Position numbers and translations under genes: made by a program
Shown: positions 10,662 to 23,841 of the stretch, piece by piece
Layout of the letters: each line of letters begins with the position of its first letter
Position numbering within the stretch: the first letter of the stretch is position 1
Notes under the pieces: model-generated
Database searches by the model: none
What the model was told of the DNA's origin: nothing
What the model saw: the letters and a program-made list of their open reading frames with translations, nothing else
Assembly: GCA_910575585.1 (NCBI GenBank)
Contig: CAJTGF010000060.1
Coordinates: forward strand, 1-33,809
Direction of reading: 5' to 3'
Length of the DNA: 33,809 nucleotides
DNA from: Clostridiaceae bacterium
GTDB taxonomy: Bacteria; Bacillota; Clostridia; Lachnospirales; Lachnospiraceae

Positions 10662-10827
10662 GCCATTGAGACCATTGATTGAGGACATGGACCTGGTAGA
10701 CGTGAAGATCTATCCGGGGATGGACGGGGAGGTCAAGGAGGTGCTGCTGAAATACGTGCCTGGCCAGGGGAAAGAAAAGGCGGTTTGGGAGAAATATACA
10801 GGCCTGTTTGAGGAGGGAGGAAAGTGA
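10639..10827 (+). CDS. hypothetical phage protein (62 aa)
   Basis: Starts ATG 10639 behind AGGAGGAAGG. Small acidic protein with an alternating beta pattern ('DMDLVDVKIYPGMDGEVKEVLLKYV'). Its TGA overlaps the next start (TGATG at 10825-10829). Function unknown. Confidence 0.6.
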   Translation: MKLKEIYEPLRPLIEDMDLVDVKIYPGMDGEVKEVLLKYVPGQGKEKAVWEKYTGLFEEGGK

Positions 10828-11408
10828 TGAAAAAATATGAGCTGACGGAGGAAGTTGTCAACTTTTGCGGGATCGATCTGTTCCGGATTCGGGCATTAAA
10901 GGCATTCGGGGATGTTGGAGATGGGGAATTGGGTGGATTTGTAGAGACGGAGGATAATTTGAGCCATGAGGACAATGCGTGGATCAGTGGAGATGCGTGG
11001 GTCAGCGGCAATGCGTGGGTCAGTGGCAATGCGTGGGTCTACGGCGATGCGAAGGTCTGTGGCAATGCGTGGGTCTACGGCGATGCGAAGGTCAGTGGCA
11101 ATGCGTGGGTCTACGGCGATGCGAAGGTCTGTGGCAATGCGTGGGTCAGCGGCAATGCGAAGGTCAGTGGAGATGCGGACTACGCCACAGCGAAAGGCTT
11201 TGGTTCCCAATTCAGGAATACCACATTTTTCCGGTTGAAAAATGGTGGCGTCGGAGTTCAATGTGGCTGCTTTTACGGTACGCTGGCAGAGTTCAGGGAA
11301 AAGGTCAAGGATACATATCCGACAAACAAAAAAGGGAAAGAATATCTGATGCTGGCAGATCTGATGAAGTGTCACTTTTGGGATGGAGAGAATGAGGGCG
11401 ATGCTTAA
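10827..11408 (+). CDS. hexapeptide-repeat (left-handed beta-helix) phage protein (193 aa)
   Basis: Residues about 50-115 are eleven consecutive six-residue units of the form [ND]A[WK]V[SYC]G, the periodicity of left-handed beta-helices; Ala and Val at fixed positions would face the core. An N-terminal domain (about 1-48) and a C-terminal domain (about 120-193, with 'YGTLAEFREKVKDTYP') flank it, an arrangement common in prophage proteins of unknown role. ATG 10827 overlaps the previous TGA; GTG 10824 is an alternative start. Confidence 0.75.
   Translation: MKKYELTEEVVNFCGIDLFRIRALKAFGDVGDGELGGFVETEDNLSHEDNAWISGDAWVSGNAWVSGNAWVYGDAKVCGNAWVYGDAKVSGNAWVYGDAKVCGNAWVSGNAKVSGDADYATAKGFGSQFRNTTFFRLKNGGVGVQCGCFYGTLAEFREKVKDTYPTNKKGKEYLMLADLMKCHFWDGENEGDA
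10974..11171 (+). repeat. 18-bp tandem coding repeat, eleven units
   Basis: Eleven 18-bp units encode the hexapeptides of the beta-helix protein. Units 4-9 (11028-11135) form three nearly identical 36-bp super-repeats (a NAWVYG unit followed by a DAKV[CS]G unit), differing by two bases in the middle copy. The near identity at DNA level points to recent duplication by slippage. Confidence 0.85.
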
Positions 11409-12350: not shown

Positions 12351-12438
12351 GGAATCTCGGGCGGTGACGAAGGAACTTAGGCGGCTGGGGTATGAGGCTT
12401 ATTTGTGTGACATTGAGACGAGAAAGGAGAACTTATGA
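12328..12438 (+). pseudogene. N-terminal stub of a phage DNA methylase-like protein (36 aa)
   Basis: ATG 12328 begins MRILIACEESRAVTKELRRL and continues to 'EAYLCDIETRKENL' before TGA. 'M-R-[IV]-L-[IV]-A-C-E-E-S' followed by 'LG-EAY-CDI' is the typical beginning of a much longer phage methylase-like protein (often followed by SGGHPEWH). Here the frame leaves the family after CDI and stops where the next gene begins, so the rest was lost, probably when the regulatory genes downstream were exchanged. It might instead be translated only to couple the next gene. Confidence 0.6.
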
Positions 12439-12656
12439 GGCAGAACTTAAAAGAAGCCCGCCAGAAGGCAGGCGTGACACAGCAGCAGATGGCAGACAAG
12501 CTGGAAATCAGTTTAAGGTACTACCAGAATATTGAGGCGGGAAGCCGAACGGGCGATTTTGGTATCTGGGATGCTTTGGAAGATATCACTGGTATTCATC
12601 AACGGACACTCCGAGAGATTTCAAAAACTCATCCCGTCCAAGGAGATAGTCCGTAG
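12435..12656 (+). CDS. XRE-family (Cro-like) DNA-binding protein (73 aa)
   Basis: A single helix-turn-helix domain: 'LKEARQKAGVTQQQMADKLEISLRYYQNIEAGSRTG' at about 5-40 is a textbook XRE motif. No second domain. ATG 12435 has AAAGGAG and overlaps the preceding stop (ATGA). Its last 71 nt overlap, in the opposite direction, the end of the XRE gene 12586-12822. Likely a regulator of the phage switch, but it is far from the two visible operators and may act elsewhere. Confidence 0.8.
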   Translation: MRQNLKEARQKAGVTQQQMADKLEISLRYYQNIEAGSRTGDFGIWDALEDITGIHQRTLREISKTHPVQGDSP

Positions 12657-12822
12657 GGACATTCAACACATCTGCTATGTGTACCAGTAGAGCATATGAG
12701 GGGGTTCGGGTTCCGGTTTCATAGCACTGATAGGAGCGTAAAGCAACATGAATGGAATCGGCCATAGTCTGTTGAGTAAGATTGCGATTCATGCGCATTT
12801 GGCGAAGTCGTTTATTGAACAT
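12586..12822 (-). CDS. XRE-family repressor-like protein (78 aa)
   Basis: Minus-strand gene starting ATG 12822 behind AGGAGGACTTTT. Residues about 5-62 form an XRE domain ('LRQMRMNRNLTQQTMADSI...VALRSYQCYETGTRTPS', 'VLNVPTDYLLGR'). It is short and has no cleavage or multimerisation domain, so it is not a classic CI. It faces away from the promoter/operator block at 12846-12903, which makes it the natural repressor of the genes starting at 12921. Convergent 71-nt overlap with the other XRE gene could allow antisense interference. Confidence 0.8.
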   Translation of the reverse strand: MFNKRLRQMRMNRNLTQQTMADSIHVALRSYQCYETGTRTPSYALLVHIADVLNVPTDYLLGRDEFLKSLGVSVDEYQ

Positions 12823-13183: not shown

Positions 13184-13750
13184 ATGCAGGAAAAGATAGT
13201 AAGTGTCAATGAGCAGAATATAACGGTCAAGGAGTTTAGAGGCAAAAGAGTAGTCACTTTTAAAGATATTGATACTGTCCATGAGAGAGCAGATGGAACG
13301 GCAAGAAGAAACTTCAACAGTAATAAACAACATTTTATCGAGGGGGAGGATTTTTTCGTACGAAATTCGTACGAAGCCCAAGCAGAATACGGTATTACTG
13401 CCCCTAATGGTTTGACACTTATTACCGAATCAGGATATCTTATGTTGGTAAAGTCTTTCACGGATGATTTGGCTTGGGACGTTCAGCGGCAGTTGGTCAA
13501 GAGATACTTCGCCCAAAAACCAGTAGATACAATGGTTACATATCAATACCCGCTTTCCGCAGCGACTTTTGAGAGTGTTGCGAATCTGGGAAGACTGATT
13601 GAGCGCGTAATGAGAACAGAGGGTGCTTGTCCTCATGAAATTGCTATGGTACTTAAGCCCATTTTCCAGCAGGCAGGGATAGAGATTAATGAACGCTTTA
13701 TCAAGGTTCCGGCATATGAACAGTTGGTATTTGATGTTGTAGCGCGATAG
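13184..13750 (+). CDS. ORF6N-domain phage antirepressor-like protein (188 aa)
   Basis: Residues about 5-95 match the ORF6N domain ('VKEFRGKRVVTFKDIDTVH', 'ARRNFNSNKQHFIEGEDFF', 'GLTLITESGYLMLVKSF'), found in phage antirepressors related to KilA-N/BRO proteins. The C-terminal half carries a separate helical domain with 'AMVLKPIFQQAGIEINERF'. It probably binds DNA or repressor and lifts repression; that is family inference. It lies in the operon behind the two-operator switch and is followed by the LexA-like winged helix gene. Confidence 0.78.
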   Translation: MQEKIVSVNEQNITVKEFRGKRVVTFKDIDTVHERADGTARRNFNSNKQHFIEGEDFFVRNSYEAQAEYGITAPNGLTLITESGYLMLVKSFTDDLAWDVQRQLVKRYFAQKPVDTMVTYQYPLSAATFESVANLGRLIERVMRTEGACPHEIAMVLKPIFQQAGIEINERFIKVPAYEQLVFDVVAR

Positions 13751-13760
13751 GAGGCAGCAG

Positions 13761-13991
13761 ATAACACACACAGATAAACGAATCGTTAGCTTTATCGTTG
13801 ACTATTACAGAGAAAATCAATTTTATCCCAATTATGATGAGATTGCGGAGGCGATAAATCGGACAAAATCAACCGTGCATACTCACATGAGAAGGCTGGA
13901 GGATGAGGGCGTTATTATTCGAAAGGCGGACCATTCATCACAATACAGGTTGATAAATATGGGTTTTATCTGTAAAAATGAGGGAGGATGA
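13761..13991 (+). CDS. LexA-like winged-helix protein (76 aa) with apparent ATA start
   Basis: The frame reads THTDKRIVSFIVDYYRENQF, then 'YPNYDEIAEAINRTKSTVH' and 'THMRRLEDEGVIIRKADHS', an unmistakable LexA-type DNA-binding domain (winged helix, wing at the end) without the peptidase half. There is no ATG, GTG or TTG near the start; a strong site AGGAGG (13749-13754) stands 6 nt before ATA at 13761. A TAG at 13740-13742 closes the frame upstream. The stop overlaps the next ATG (ATGA, 13988-13991), so the gene is in an active operon layout. ATA initiation or a mutated start are the options. Confidence 0.65.
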   Translation: MTHTDKRIVSFIVDYYRENQFYPNYDEIAEAINRTKSTVHTHMRRLEDEGVIIRKADHSSQYRLINMGFICKNEGG

Positions 13992-14959: not shown

Positions 14960-15133
14960 GTGCATAATTGGATACAGAAAAAATGCATGATTCTCCCTCT
15001 TTACATATACAGCCATTAGGTGTTACAGCCTGGTGGCTGATTTAGACGGTATACCGTCAATAGACCTGGTTTTGGACTCTCCATCCAGACATTCCAGGCG
15101 GAGAAAGGCACCCTAGAGATAGGGTGTCTTTTT
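14960..15133 (+). ncRNA. candidate structured RNA of about 170 nt between late promoter and terminator
   Basis: No protein frame is evident, but the stretch begins just after the TATAAT at 14948 and ends in a strong terminator at 15107-15133, forming a complete short transcription unit. It contains a hairpin CAGCC-TGGT-GGCTG (15026-15039), a palindrome GACGGTATACCGTC (15045-15058), and nested arms CCTGG/CCAGG (15065-15069 with 15094-15098) and TCTCC/GGAGA (15078-15082 with 15100-15104), which cannot all form at once. It could be a phage small RNA, or a leader where the late activator or an antiterminator lets polymerase pass the terminator, like pR'-tR' of lambda. The 5' end is inferred. Confidence 0.5.
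15107..15133 (+). terminator. intrinsic terminator ending the candidate RNA
   Basis: GGCACCCTA (15107-15115) pairs with TAGGGTGTC (15120-15128) over a GAGA loop, followed by five T. Confidence 0.85.
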
Positions 15134-15143
15134 CATGTATACA

Positions 15144-15172
15144 TTGACAAATGCGAACATATGTTCTATAAT
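15144..15172 (+). promoter_or_regulatory. consensus promoter with LexA (SOS) box in the spacer
   Basis: TTGACA (15144-15149), 17-bp spacer and TATAAT (15167-15172), a perfect sigma-A promoter. The spacer and first -10 base hold CGAACATATGTTCT (15154-15167) with the perfect palindrome GAACATATGTTC, matching the Gram-positive LexA box (GAAC-N4-GTTC). LexA bound here would block polymerase, so the genes from 15303 should be silent until DNA damage. Confidence 0.8.
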
Positions 15173-15263
15173 TTCAATATGGTGAATAGGACAGTAAGCT
15201 ATTGAGTATCATAATAAACAAATCCCAATAAGCATATTTGGTAAGATTTTCCAGTACGGCATA

Positions 15264-15272
15264 TGCTATAAT
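15264..15272 (+). promoter_or_regulatory. possible second promoter, extended -10
   Basis: TGCTATAAT (15264-15272) is an extended -10 element (TGnTATAAT) 30 nt before the ATG at 15303. No -35 is visible at 17 bp, which extended -10 promoters can do without. It would give basal expression independent of the SOS promoter. Confidence 0.5.
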
Positions 15273-15302
15273 GTAGAAAAATGTCGGATTGGAGAGTACG
15301 AT

Positions 15303-16202
15303 ATGAATACAAGAAACATAAAATTTCAATATTTTGGAATGGTAAGACAGAAAAGAGAAGGAGATAGCTGGAAAGGACTCGGGAAATTTGATGTAATTAC
15401 ATGGGTTAATAATATAAAAATTAAAGATTTATTAAGACAGCCATTAAACTTAGGGGATACAAAGGGACAAGTAGAAAAAATAGAATATTCAGAGAAAGAA
15501 GACGTTTGGGTAATACGTTTTATGAAGTTGAGAGAAGATAACATCCCATCCATAGCAAAAAGAAATCAAGAAGCTAAAGGAATTGAATTGGCAGATGATG
15601 AATATATTGGAGAAGATATTTACATGTTATATGATAATCGGGTTGGGGTAGCAATGATTCAATCTAATCGTTTTTCACTTGGTATAAAAAGATTATCCGA
15701 ACTTATTTCTCATGTTTGGGGAAAAGATGAGGAAAGGATAGCAATCAAGCCTATTTCACAGGATATAAATTTAAAAAGTAAACGGAGAAAATATCGGACG
15801 ATAGAACTTTCGTTTGCGAATATACAAAAAGAAGAATTGGATGAAAGGAGTTCTTTAAGTCGTCTTAAAAGCTTTTACCAGAAGTTTTATGGTATTTCCG
15901 GAACAATAAAAATAGGAATTGGAAGAACAAAAAATGGTACACTAAATATCGATGAAGTCGAGCATTTAATAGAAGAAGTGAAGACAGATCCATCTATAGT
16001 AGGAGCCCGAATTAAGGTAAAGGATGATGATAAGGCATATATTGAAACAGTTGATTTGTTTGATAATATATATAATGATATTATAGAATTTAAAACCCAA
16101 GAAAAGACAGTATTGAATCCAGAATATGTGGCACGAAATATGATAAAATATTACAAAGATAGAAAAAACGAATTGGCCGGTAAAATGATTCAAGCAAAAT
16201 GA
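15303..16202 (+). CDS. unknown soluble accessory protein (299 aa), SOS-controlled cassette gene 1
   Basis: I do not recognise the family with certainty; the start 'MNTRNIKFQYFGMV' and size recall uncharacterised phage/defence-island proteins (DUF6731-like is a guess). No signal peptide or membrane helix. The N-terminal 170 residues are beta-rich ('FMKLREDNIPSIA', 'EDIYMLYDNRVGVAMIQSNR'), the rest mixed, with 'IVGARIKVKDDDKAYIETVDLFDN' near the C-terminus. ATG 15303 has TTGGAGAG. The DNA is much more AT-rich than flanking phage genes, by inspection about one third G+C, which points to recent acquisition. The next gene (membrane protein) starts 16 nt after the stop, so the two form one operon behind the LexA-box promoter. 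Confidence 0.75.
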   Translation: MNTRNIKFQYFGMVRQKREGDSWKGLGKFDVITWVNNIKIKDLLRQPLNLGDTKGQVEKIEYSEKEDVWVIRFMKLREDNIPSIAKRNQEAKGIELADDEYIGEDIYMLYDNRVGVAMIQSNRFSLGIKRLSELISHVWGKDEERIAIKPISQDINLKSKRRKYRTIELSFANIQKEELDERSSLSRLKSFYQKFYGISGTIKIGIGRTKNGTLNIDEVEHLIEEVKTDPSIVGARIKVKDDDKAYIETVDLFDNIYNDIIEFKTQEKTVLNPEYVARNMIKYYKDRKNELAGKMIQAK

Positions 16203-16218
16203 AAAAAGGGGGCTTGAG

Positions 16219-16758
16219 ATGGCGCTAATAGGGTATTATATTGAAAGATGCTATCCTTATGTAATTTCAGCCATAATTTCAGCAATACTTTTTCATCTGA
16301 AAATTGATATTAGGATGGATGTTAATTATACGGAATTACTTAATGGGTTAGTAAATTTGGAATCAATTGTTATTGGATTTATTGGCGCAATTATGCCAGT
16401 TGTTTTGAGCATGAGAAATGAATCAAAATTTGTTAGGTATATTTTTGAAAAGGATAAAAAGGGTCTGTTTGGAAAATATGTAAAATCAACTATTTTTGTT
16501 GGATTAGTTGGTACATCCGTTTCATTAATGATGCATGTTCGAAACAGTATGAGTGTTAGAATATCAAGTTTTATATACTATTTTTGGATATTTACAACTT
16601 TATTATTTTTGTTTTCCACTTATAGAAGTATGTCACATATGGTAGATTTGATTTTTTCTAAAGATACTACAGATGAAAAAGATTTAGACCAAAAAGGAAT
16701 ATCCAGTACCCATGCAGAGATAGAAATAAAAGAAGAATTTAAGAACCCTAATTTATAG
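16219..16758 (+). CDS. four-helix membrane protein (179 aa), SOS-controlled cassette gene 2
   Basis: ATG 16219 with AAAAAAGGGGG. Hydrophobic segments at about 12-27, 47-64, 90-106 and 117-134 predict four membrane helices; residues 66-90 and the last 40 are charged and probably cytoplasmic (C-terminus 'HAEIEIKEEFKNPNL'). No family recognised. The same AT-rich composition and tight linkage to the preceding gene suggest they were acquired together. A soluble protein paired with a small membrane protein is the pattern of sensor-plus-membrane-effector defence or abortive infection modules; that is a hypothesis. Confidence 0.75.
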   Translation: MALIGYYIERCYPYVISAIISAILFHLKIDIRMDVNYTELLNGLVNLESIVIGFIGAIMPVVLSMRNESKFVRYIFEKDKKGLFGKYVKSTIFVGLVGTSVSLMMHVRNSMSVRISSFIYYFWIFTTLLFLFSTYRSMSHMVDLIFSKDTTDEKDLDQKGISSTHAEIEIKEEFKNPNL

Positions 16759-16812
16759 TAGTTTTTATTTTGGACTACAGTATAGAGAATTTAATAGCAG
16801 AAAATGAGTATC

Positions 16813-16834
16813 CATCTATCCAGATGTCTTTTTT
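16813..16834 (+). terminator. intrinsic terminator after the two-gene cassette
   Basis: CATCT (16813-16817) and AGATG (16822-16826) pair over a 4-nt loop, followed by TCTTTTTTTA. The stem is short but the T-run is long. It would close the cassette transcript. Confidence 0.55.
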
Positions 16835-16913
16835 TATCAAAACAAAAATGAAATGGATGAAAGATGGATGTGGATGTCTCTTTTCTTTTCCCAAAAACAA
16901 ATACAGACCGATT

Positions 16914-16944
16914 AAGAGGTAGCCTCGCCGCCTCTTTTAATTTT
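16914..16944 (+). terminator. weak hairpin before the terminase gene
   Basis: AAGAGG (16914-16919) and CCTCTT (16931-16936) followed by TTAATTTT. GAGG/CCTC at 16916-16925 offers an alternative small stem. It could be a second terminator or an attenuator. The surrounding 16835-16975 holds no gene and no clear promoter; TTTTCCCAAAA occurs twice (about 16887 and 16942). Confidence 0.4.
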
Positions 16945-23130: not shown

Positions 23131-23174
23131 TATGTGTTATACCCATTGACAAATATTATTATATGTGTTATTAT
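23131..23174 (+). promoter_or_regulatory. hicAB promoter with direct-repeat operator candidate
   Basis: TTGACA (23146-23151), 17-bp spacer, TATTAT (23169-23174; a TATAAT begins 3 nt later). TATGTGTTAT occurs at 23131-23140 and again at 23162-23171, 31 bp (about three turns) apart, flanking the -35 and overlapping the -10. HicB has a DNA-binding C-terminus and this repeat is a candidate for its operator. Confidence 0.7.
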
Positions 23175-23196
23175 AATAGTGTCAGGAGGAGAATAC

Positions 23197-23394
23197 ATGA
23201 AAAGTTATTCATCAAGGGAAGTTATCAAAATGCTGAAAGCGGATGGTTGGTATGAGGTAAATGTAACGGGCAGTCATCACCAGTACAAACACCCAACCAA
23301 AAAGGGACGCACAACGGTAAAACATCCTGACAAAGATATCCCTCATAAAACGCTGAAACGCATTGAAGAGCAGTCGGGGCTAGTATTTAAATAG
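23197..23394 (+). CDS. hicA: HicA toxin, mRNA interferase (65 aa)
   Basis: Cleaves mRNA and arrests growth when free of HicB. The double-stranded RNA-binding-like fold is visible: 'SSREVIKMLKADGWYEV', 'GSHHQYKHPTKKGRTTVKHP' (catalytic His within GSHH) and 'DKDIPHKTLKRIEEQSGL'. Full normal length. ATG 23197 has AGGAGGAGAATAC; the frame also runs upstream through the promoter. First gene of a terminator-flanked cassette within the head genes. Confidence 0.9.
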   Translation: MKSYSSREVIKMLKADGWYEVNVTGSHHQYKHPTKKGRTTVKHPDKDIPHKTLKRIEEQSGLVFK

Positions 23395-23399
23395 CCCCG
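23375..23399 (+). other. hairpin across the hicA stop codon
   Basis: CGGGGCTA (23375-23382) and TAGCCCCG (23392-23399) form an 8-bp stem around the stop. No T-run follows, so it is not a plain terminator; it may set mRNA stability or the toxin/antitoxin ratio. Confidence 0.5.
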
Positions 23400-23436
23400 G
23401 CCCTTCCCGGCATACCAGATTAAGGAGGCTATATTC

Positions 23437-23841
23437 ATGAAAAAAGTAGAACGTTACGTTTATCCCGCGGTCTTTACTTATGAGCCGGATCAGGAGATTG
23501 CGGTTGATTTTCCTGATCTAAAGTGTGCAACAAGTGGCACAAATGATGATGACGCGCTTTTATCCGCAAGAGAACTTCTTGGATGTGTCCTTTACGGTAT
23601 GGAGGAGGACGAAGAAGAAATTCCTGACCCTACACCACTGGCAGAAGTAGAGACACAGCCAAATGAGAGGGCAGTCTTAATTGATGTCTATATGCCCTCT
23701 GTTCGAATGGCACAGATAAATCGTTCCGTCAACAGAACCGTCACCCTGCCGGCATGGCTTAATGCAGCAGCGCTGGAGAGAAATATTAATTTTTCCCAGG
23801 TGTTGCAGGACGCTTTAAAAACTCAGCTTCACATGGGATAA
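23437..23841 (+). CDS. hicB: HicB antitoxin (134 aa)
   Basis: Neutralises HicA and represses the operon. N-terminal partially degraded RNase H-like domain ('YPAVFTYEPDQEIAVDFPDL', 'NDDDALLSARELLGCVLYGM') and a C-terminal ribbon-helix-helix ('VNRTVTLPAWLNAAALERN', 'INFSQVLQDALKTQL'). ATG 23437 has AAGGAGG. The toxin-first order is typical for hicAB. A terminator follows. Confidence 0.88.
   Translation: MKKVERYVYPAVFTYEPDQEIAVDFPDLKCATSGTNDDDALLSARELLGCVLYGMEEDEEEIPDPTPLAEVETQPNERAVLIDVYMPSVRMAQINRSVNRTVTLPAWLNAAALERNINFSQVLQDALKTQLHMG

Follow-up and report, generated by a model that had tools for sequence, protein, structure and literature searches.

We analysed a two-gene cassette in the genome of a Lachnospiraceae bacterium (GenBank assembly GCA_910575585.1, listed as Clostridiaceae bacterium). 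The stretch of DNA studied, hereafter the window, is one entire contig of 33,809 nt (CAJTGF010000060.1; G000:C60 in our numbering) from a host genome of 6.1 Mb in 253 contigs. It is a prophage, with helix-turn-helix (HTH) regulators, an ORF6N antirepressor, a late regulator, terminase subunits and a portal among its genes. A preliminary description of the same DNA had proposed a tightly linked, AT-rich gene pair for a soluble and a four-helix membrane protein, placed between late regulator and terminase behind a consensus promoter with a palindrome in its spacer, and all of these points were borne out. The two open reading frames (ORFs) are 16 nt apart (Table 1). Their G+C contents are 30.9% (299-amino-acid [aa] gene) and 28.1% (179-aa gene) versus 48.4% in the remaining window; the lowest value among 589 other segments of the same length is 38.7%, so that none reaches the cassette values. 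On the 5' side of the slot lies the late regulator, with a sigma-70 region 4 match (phrog_1558), and on the 3' side the small and large terminase subunits.

Promoter P1 is the sole exact consensus promoter with a 15- to 19-nt spacer in the window, where 0.01 are expected. Promoter-like sites in general occur at chance level in the region (10 found versus 11.1 expected), P1 being the only one to match at 12 of 12 positions. The palindrome GAACATATGTTC is found at 15155-15166, within the P1 spacer. Closer to the start codon is a second conserved block, TGCTATAATGTAGAAAAATGTCGGATTGGAG, which is nearly identical in the window and in the related loci L002 and L016, while the DNA separating it from P1 is less conserved. 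Its 26-nt core occurs once in the genome with 3 mismatches allowed, and the block is possibly a LexA-independent promoter, P2.

The cassette had also been described as flanked by two terminators, which is well supported on the upstream side only. There, the RNA fold of 15095-15140 has a free energy of -24.9 kcal/mol (z score -8.3), with 0 of 200 shuffles as good. By contrast, the hairpin just 3' of the cassette (16813-16835) has a 5-bp stem and is no better than shuffles (z -0.22), making the closing terminator the weak point of the original observation. About 90 nt beyond it is a moderate hairpin. A pattern scan for terminators listed neither of the cassette-flanking terminators.

Table 1. 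Features of the cassette, with positions in the window.
Feature	Position	Strand	Basis
Strong intrinsic terminator ahead of cassette	15107..15133	+	RNA fold of 15095-15140
Promoter P1, TTGACA-N17-TATAAT	15144..15172	+	12/12 consensus positions
Predicted LexA box CGAACATATGTTCT in P1 spacer, abutting -10	15154..15167	+	Host pattern, recurrence at relatives
Second conserved block TGCTATAATGTAGAAAAATGTCGGATTGGAG: extended -10-like element, leader, ribosome-binding site	15264..15294	+	
RexA-like protein, 299 aa (DUF6731)	15303..16202	+	Pfam PF20505 E 7.7e-58, RexA fold, RexA profile match
RexB-like four-helix membrane protein, 179 aa	16219..16758	+	Model pLDDT (predicted local distance difference test) 84, always 3' of DUF6731
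Possible downstream terminator hairpin, moderate	16914..16936	+	RNA fold, z -2.3

Fold and profile link DUF6731 to RexA

The 299-aa protein belongs to a Pfam entry of unknown function, DUF6731, which we did not find named in the literature searched; the link to RexA is made in this analysis. When its predicted structure was searched against the PDB, lambda RexA was the best fold match. The protein has the two-domain, RdgC-like fold of RexA, and RdgC itself appeared as a structural relative. DUF6731 also matches lambda RexA at the profile level, including the L-x-D-D-E-x-(I/L)-G motif. By fold and profile, we identify the soluble protein as a RexA homologue. The fold alignment (A7) was made from sequences of the window and related loci, 30 of 35 different proteins, L017 being represented by its open part. 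The K221-equivalent residue is basic in 27 of the 30 rows and the R219-equivalent in 9, which is only a hint of non-specific DNA binding. An hmmsearch of profile A1 against PDB sequences gave no match, and the PADLOC match of one DUF6731 member to PDC-M67A, an unproven candidate, was given no weight.

For the 179-aa protein, no family match at a meaningful level was obtained. Its model consists of four long helices, and the loop joining helices 2 and 3 is basic, with K or R at positions 66, 73 and 81 in 24, 26 and 24 of 31 rows, respectively. Fold searches with this model against the PDB and BFVD returned no match at E<=0.001. Among the 50 BFVD matches listed, the third-best template modelling (TM) score (0.50/0.53) belongs to a 165-aa protein of mycobacteriophage Sbash. 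We take this protein to be gp31, because gp31, at 165 aa, is the sole protein of that length in the 12-kb Sbash stretch examined. Two further sets of matches were left aside: those from an hmmsearch of profile A2 against PDB sequences (14 weak matches, most of them to ion-channel chains, the lowest E being 0.0024) and the PADLOC matches of membrane proteins to the unproven candidates PDC-M18B (7/31) and PDC-M53B (6/31).

The pair is constant in composition and sporadic in occurrence

To follow the pair beyond the window, loci were collected by whole-genome, genome-contig and viral-contig searches. Every one of the 51 loci whose DUF6731 gene is near-full (>200 aligned positions) has a membrane gene directly 3' of it, with a gap of at most 27 nt or an overlap. 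Judged by C-terminal sequence, these loci encode 35 different proteins, and some of them are duplicate retrievals of one place. The same loci served to build the partner profile in successive rounds, the partner at L021 being missed in the first and found in the second. Conversely, with the membrane profile alone as query, all 11 loci found have DUF6731 upstream, in one case in two pieces, and 6 of the 11 contigs were new. Listeria and Streptococcus phages found by tblastn also carry the pair, the partner being recognised by eye. Co-occurrence elsewhere, which the preliminary description had named as a check, is thus seen throughout, and no match to structural or housekeeping phage families was found. 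Split genes (L010/L013, L011/L014, L057 and L070) were kept in pieces and stand outside the near-full count. At L010/L013 (G618:C1) and L011/L014 (G474:C1), the DUF6731 gene is broken with the membrane gene still adjoining; the break is an inserted TnpB-like ORF (by eye) in one genome and a two-frame split in the other.

The pair is sporadic. DUF6731 was detected in 7 of 299 genomes of a family sample and in 5 of 398 genomes sampled from the phylum, the genome of the window being counted in each, and the membrane profile matched none of 25 further genomes from its genus. Among 35 loci analysed for context, a terminase relative was found downstream in 21, a late-regulator relative upstream in 15 and at least one of the two in 26; the set includes duplicates such as L002/L015, and the counts are lower bounds with seeds from four phages only. 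At loci such as L017, L019 and L020, the pair is present and neither relative was found. Other sites seen by eye are the lysis end of prophages and chromosomal locations.

A 61-genome search with the membrane profile yielded two weak matches outside known pairs. One (G009) vanished on rescoring. The other (G000:C18; L095) comes from the window's host genome. It corresponds to the C-terminal portion of a RexB-like gene, immediately followed by the gene of a terminase small subunit that is almost identical to that of the window; no DUF6731 match occurs in the 3.2 kb seen. A sister prophage thus seems to keep, in the corresponding slot, what is left of a further pair. A further prophage piece of this genome (L041; G000:C134:1-6757) is nearly identical to the window in its late regulators and the leader DNA up to the slot. 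Where the cassette would be, it has two ORFs, one of 794 aa that resembles a tail fibre by eye and one that is integrase-like.

A predicted LexA box in the cassette promoter

The palindrome had been read as a Gram-positive LexA box, and the host genome agrees with this. Strict boxes of the GAAC-N4-GTTC type stand in front of recA (TIGR02012) and uvrA (NF001503), and three one-mismatch boxes lie upstream of lexA (TIGR00498). Since the box precedes these genes, GAAC-N4-GTTC is very likely this host's SOS operator. A box of the host pattern overlaps the cassette promoter, as expected of a member of the LexA regulon. The bare motif is not rare in the window (2 matches versus 0.44 expected; at least 2 in 6 of 100 shuffles), and the weight of this box comes from its placement in a promoter, the host's own LexA sites and its recurrence 5' of relatives.

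A perfect box is present within 300 bp 5' of the pair in 8 of 44 loci: the window, L002 and L015 (the same phage sequence), L018, L044, L048, L063 and L074 (the Listeria phage). L018 is from Diplocloster agilis, a natural lysogen with several prophages. DUF6731 identity to the window's protein is 33% at L018, 24% at L044, 44% at L048 and 30% at L063. In dinucleotide shuffles of the 44 upstream regions, the mean number of loci with a box was 0.068 and never exceeded 1 in 500 rounds; inside the genes themselves (63,671 nt), there are 0 perfect boxes. The box runs directly into the -10 hexamer in the window, L018, L044 and L048, and the promoter of the window recurs at L016 with a single box mismatch. 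A tree of 37 DUF6731 proteins requires at least 6 changes of the box label, which is unclustered on it (188 of 500 shuffles as low). Because the starred branches of this tree force at least 3 changes, the box is, on the sequences at hand, gained or lost repeatedly. A literature search on LexA combined with superinfection found no paper.

A small winged-helix ORF at 13743-13988 has a LexA DNA-binding domain match (PF01726, E 4.4e-8) and a helix that, in alignment, is much like that of host LexA. Its copy at L041 begins with ATG, and the window frame shows no such start there. Among 26 loci scanned, only the window and L051 gave matches. Its possible role as a phage-encoded, LexA-like protein acting on the box is no more than a lead, since HTH_24 and HTH_36 outscore the LexA domain.

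A proposed RexAB-type exclusion pair under LexA control

We propose, with a probability of roughly 0.7, that the two genes form a phage exclusion pair of RexAB type in a Bacillota prophage and that the host LexA repressor controls them. The computation establishes RexA fold and profile homology, constant pair linkage, a four-helix partner, a host-pattern LexA box and recurrence of the box; induction, channel activity, exclusion and a trigger are what we infer beyond this. The homology, the linkage and the box also favour the earlier proposal of a soluble sensor and membrane effector in a damage-induced module for abortive infection or superinfection exclusion. By homology, the RexA-like protein would bind DNA and act as sensor, with the four-helix protein as effector.

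In an undamaged lysogen, LexA bound to the P1 spacer would keep the pair low, and the second element beside the start codon may supply a basal level. DNA damage, whether external or caused by a waking co-resident prophage or the replication of an invading phage, would cause LexA to be cleaved and both proteins to be made in a burst. By analogy with lambda, Sbash and Pseudomonas putida, the RexA-like protein may act as a dimer with non-specific DNA binding, which complexes of phage replication or recombination, or else a phage protein, would switch. It would then activate the RexB-like protein, which would depolarise the membrane, lower ATP and halt the cell before any foreign progeny form. For lambda, Sbash, CarolAnn and P. 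putida, a probable impairment of the membrane by the activated membrane partner is described, as is the ability of RexA excess alone to trigger RexB in uninfected cells (PMC12894663); LexA-driven bursts could therefore arm or even fire the system. Possible benefits are the abortion of cells taken by a damage-woken rival prophage, the use of phage-induced SOS as an infection alarm, and a bias on the prophage's own switch, as by RexA in lambda. A bolder and doubtful extension is that an SOS-inducible RexAB serves as a weapon between prophages within one damaged polylysogenic cell: once damage had woken all of the resident prophages, release of LexA would arm the pair, and the sensor would abort rival-dominated cells or hold rivals back while the carrier is immune. 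If so, the role of Rex would extend beyond a superinfection guard, with LexA as a built-in alarm for infection and damage.

Several observations weigh against the RexAB assignment. Whole-chain superposition on RexA is poor (TM 0.41-0.44, root-mean-square deviation 15-17), presumably as a matter of domain orientation. PADLOC scans of 30 DUF6731 members at E<=1 gave no match to a model named RexA, the library content for RexA being unchecked. RexA homology is in itself no proof of exclusion, as RexA and RdgC have other DNA-linked roles. The membrane protein lacks detectable sequence homology to lambda RexB: the profile score of 14.6 is within shuffles, in a comparison with a shallow RexB alignment (5 rows, effective number of sequences 1.6), and the PADLOC RexB model matched only 1 of 31 membrane proteins (E 0.029). 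A similar failure to find RexB homology is described for the P. putida membrane partner (PMC12894663). As single sequences, Sbash gp30 has no profile match to DUF6731 and gp31 none to the membrane protein, and the Sbash fold match has a Foldseek E of 2.0 at rank 18. As for LexA control, the strict box has 10 sites in the host genome versus 10 for a backwards control, only some of the ten being tied to SOS genes, and 36 of the 44 loci have no perfect box, so that SOS control is not general.

Alternative explanations

The roles of the two proteins might be reversed, as described for gp30/gp31 of phage Butters (PMC12894663). The RexA-like DNA binder would be the toxic effector, restrained by the membrane protein until infection, and LexA control would set the effector dose. 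Partners that always occur together would be expected of a toxin and its restraint no less than of a sensor and its channel. We nevertheless consider reversed roles unlikely: descriptions of the lambda, Sbash, CarolAnn and P. putida systems make the membrane protein the effector (PMC12894663), and the helix 2-3 loop is basic at conserved places, while in Sbash gp31 loop substitutions are described to kill defence (PMC6426596). Less probable again is a main role of the RexA-like protein in the switch of its own prophage, with exclusion secondary. Made under SOS, it would push lytic growth or damp RecA in the way of RdgC, the structural relative of RexA that is described to lower RecA activity and LexA cleavage; RexA alone is reported to bias lambda to the lytic state (PMC11077077), and LexA control would turn the soluble protein on at induction. 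However, a role on DNA only would not need the adjoining membrane gene that is present in every row counted, and the pair also occurs at loci where no late-regulator or terminase relative was found.

Kiwa, described as another two-gene design of membrane and DNA-binding protein (PMC12904381), was considered first and then abandoned in the light of the fold search and the PADLOC scans, which gave no evidence of KwaA/KwaB family membership. A convergent Kiwa-like defence, in which the soluble protein would block incoming DNA at the membrane, is very unlikely, given that RexA is the best fold match and that no KwaA/KwaB model is among the PADLOC matches of 30 DUF6731 and 31 membrane members at E<=1; KwaB is also absent from the PDB fold lists of matches, which excludes nothing. 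Least likely of all is a holin-like function in which the damage-induced membrane protein times lysis or serves release, under regulation by the soluble protein. Control by damage would suit such a function, as would the small size and several helices of the membrane protein, and 1 of 31 membrane proteins matches a holin model (E 0.086), but the partner is a RexA homologue and the pair often sits before terminase.

Relation to described Rex systems

The RexAB-type pair proposed here resembles lambda RexA/RexB, which is responsible for T4rII exclusion, in gene order, in the RexA fold and profile homology, in its small membrane partner and in being prophage-borne. It differs in position and promoter: the lambda pair follows cI, whereas the window pair is located between late regulator and terminase, has a LexA-box promoter of its own and does not directly follow an immunity repressor gene, the repressor-like HTH genes of the window being at 12435-12822. 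Lambda has a separate, later promoter for rexB. The lambda rexAB genes are described as transcribed with cI from PRM (PMC11077077) and should therefore fall when cI transcription shuts down after induction, whereas the window pair should come on when LexA is cleaved. This contrast makes the purpose of Rex systems directly testable in Gram-positive prophages. Sbash gp30/gp31 and CarolAnn gp44/gp43 likewise combine a soluble with a four-helix membrane protein. The Sbash pair, described as a proven Rex-like defence pair with lysogenically expressed genes (PMC6426596), is also displaced from the repressor gene, and the weak fold match adds to the likeness; its proteins, as single sequences, give no profile match. 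By contrast, P. putida RexABpp (PP_5643-5644), compared by description, is in the operon of the prophage's putative repressor gene, and that description, as far as compared, does not mention LexA control.

A January 2026 count gives only five described RexAB-like systems (PMC12894663), and a literature search on RexAB exclusion in Firmicutes prophages turned up a single review. New here are the link between DUF6731 and RexA, the spread across Bacillota phages and the recurrent LexA promoter. They offer a function hypothesis for DUF6731 and extend RexAB-type pairs to phages or genomes of Lachnospiraceae, Clostridiaceae, Oscillospiraceae, Listeria and Streptococcus, with LexA control as an added regulatory logic seen in several divergent lineages.

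Other features of the window

HicA-like and HicB-like ORFs were recognised by eye at 23134-23841. Similar small ORFs lie just 5' of the pair at L044, and a HicB-like one at L066. At 10824-11408, a 194-aa ORF consists mostly of a short repeat (GNAWVYGDAKVSGNA...) and is open in other frames too.
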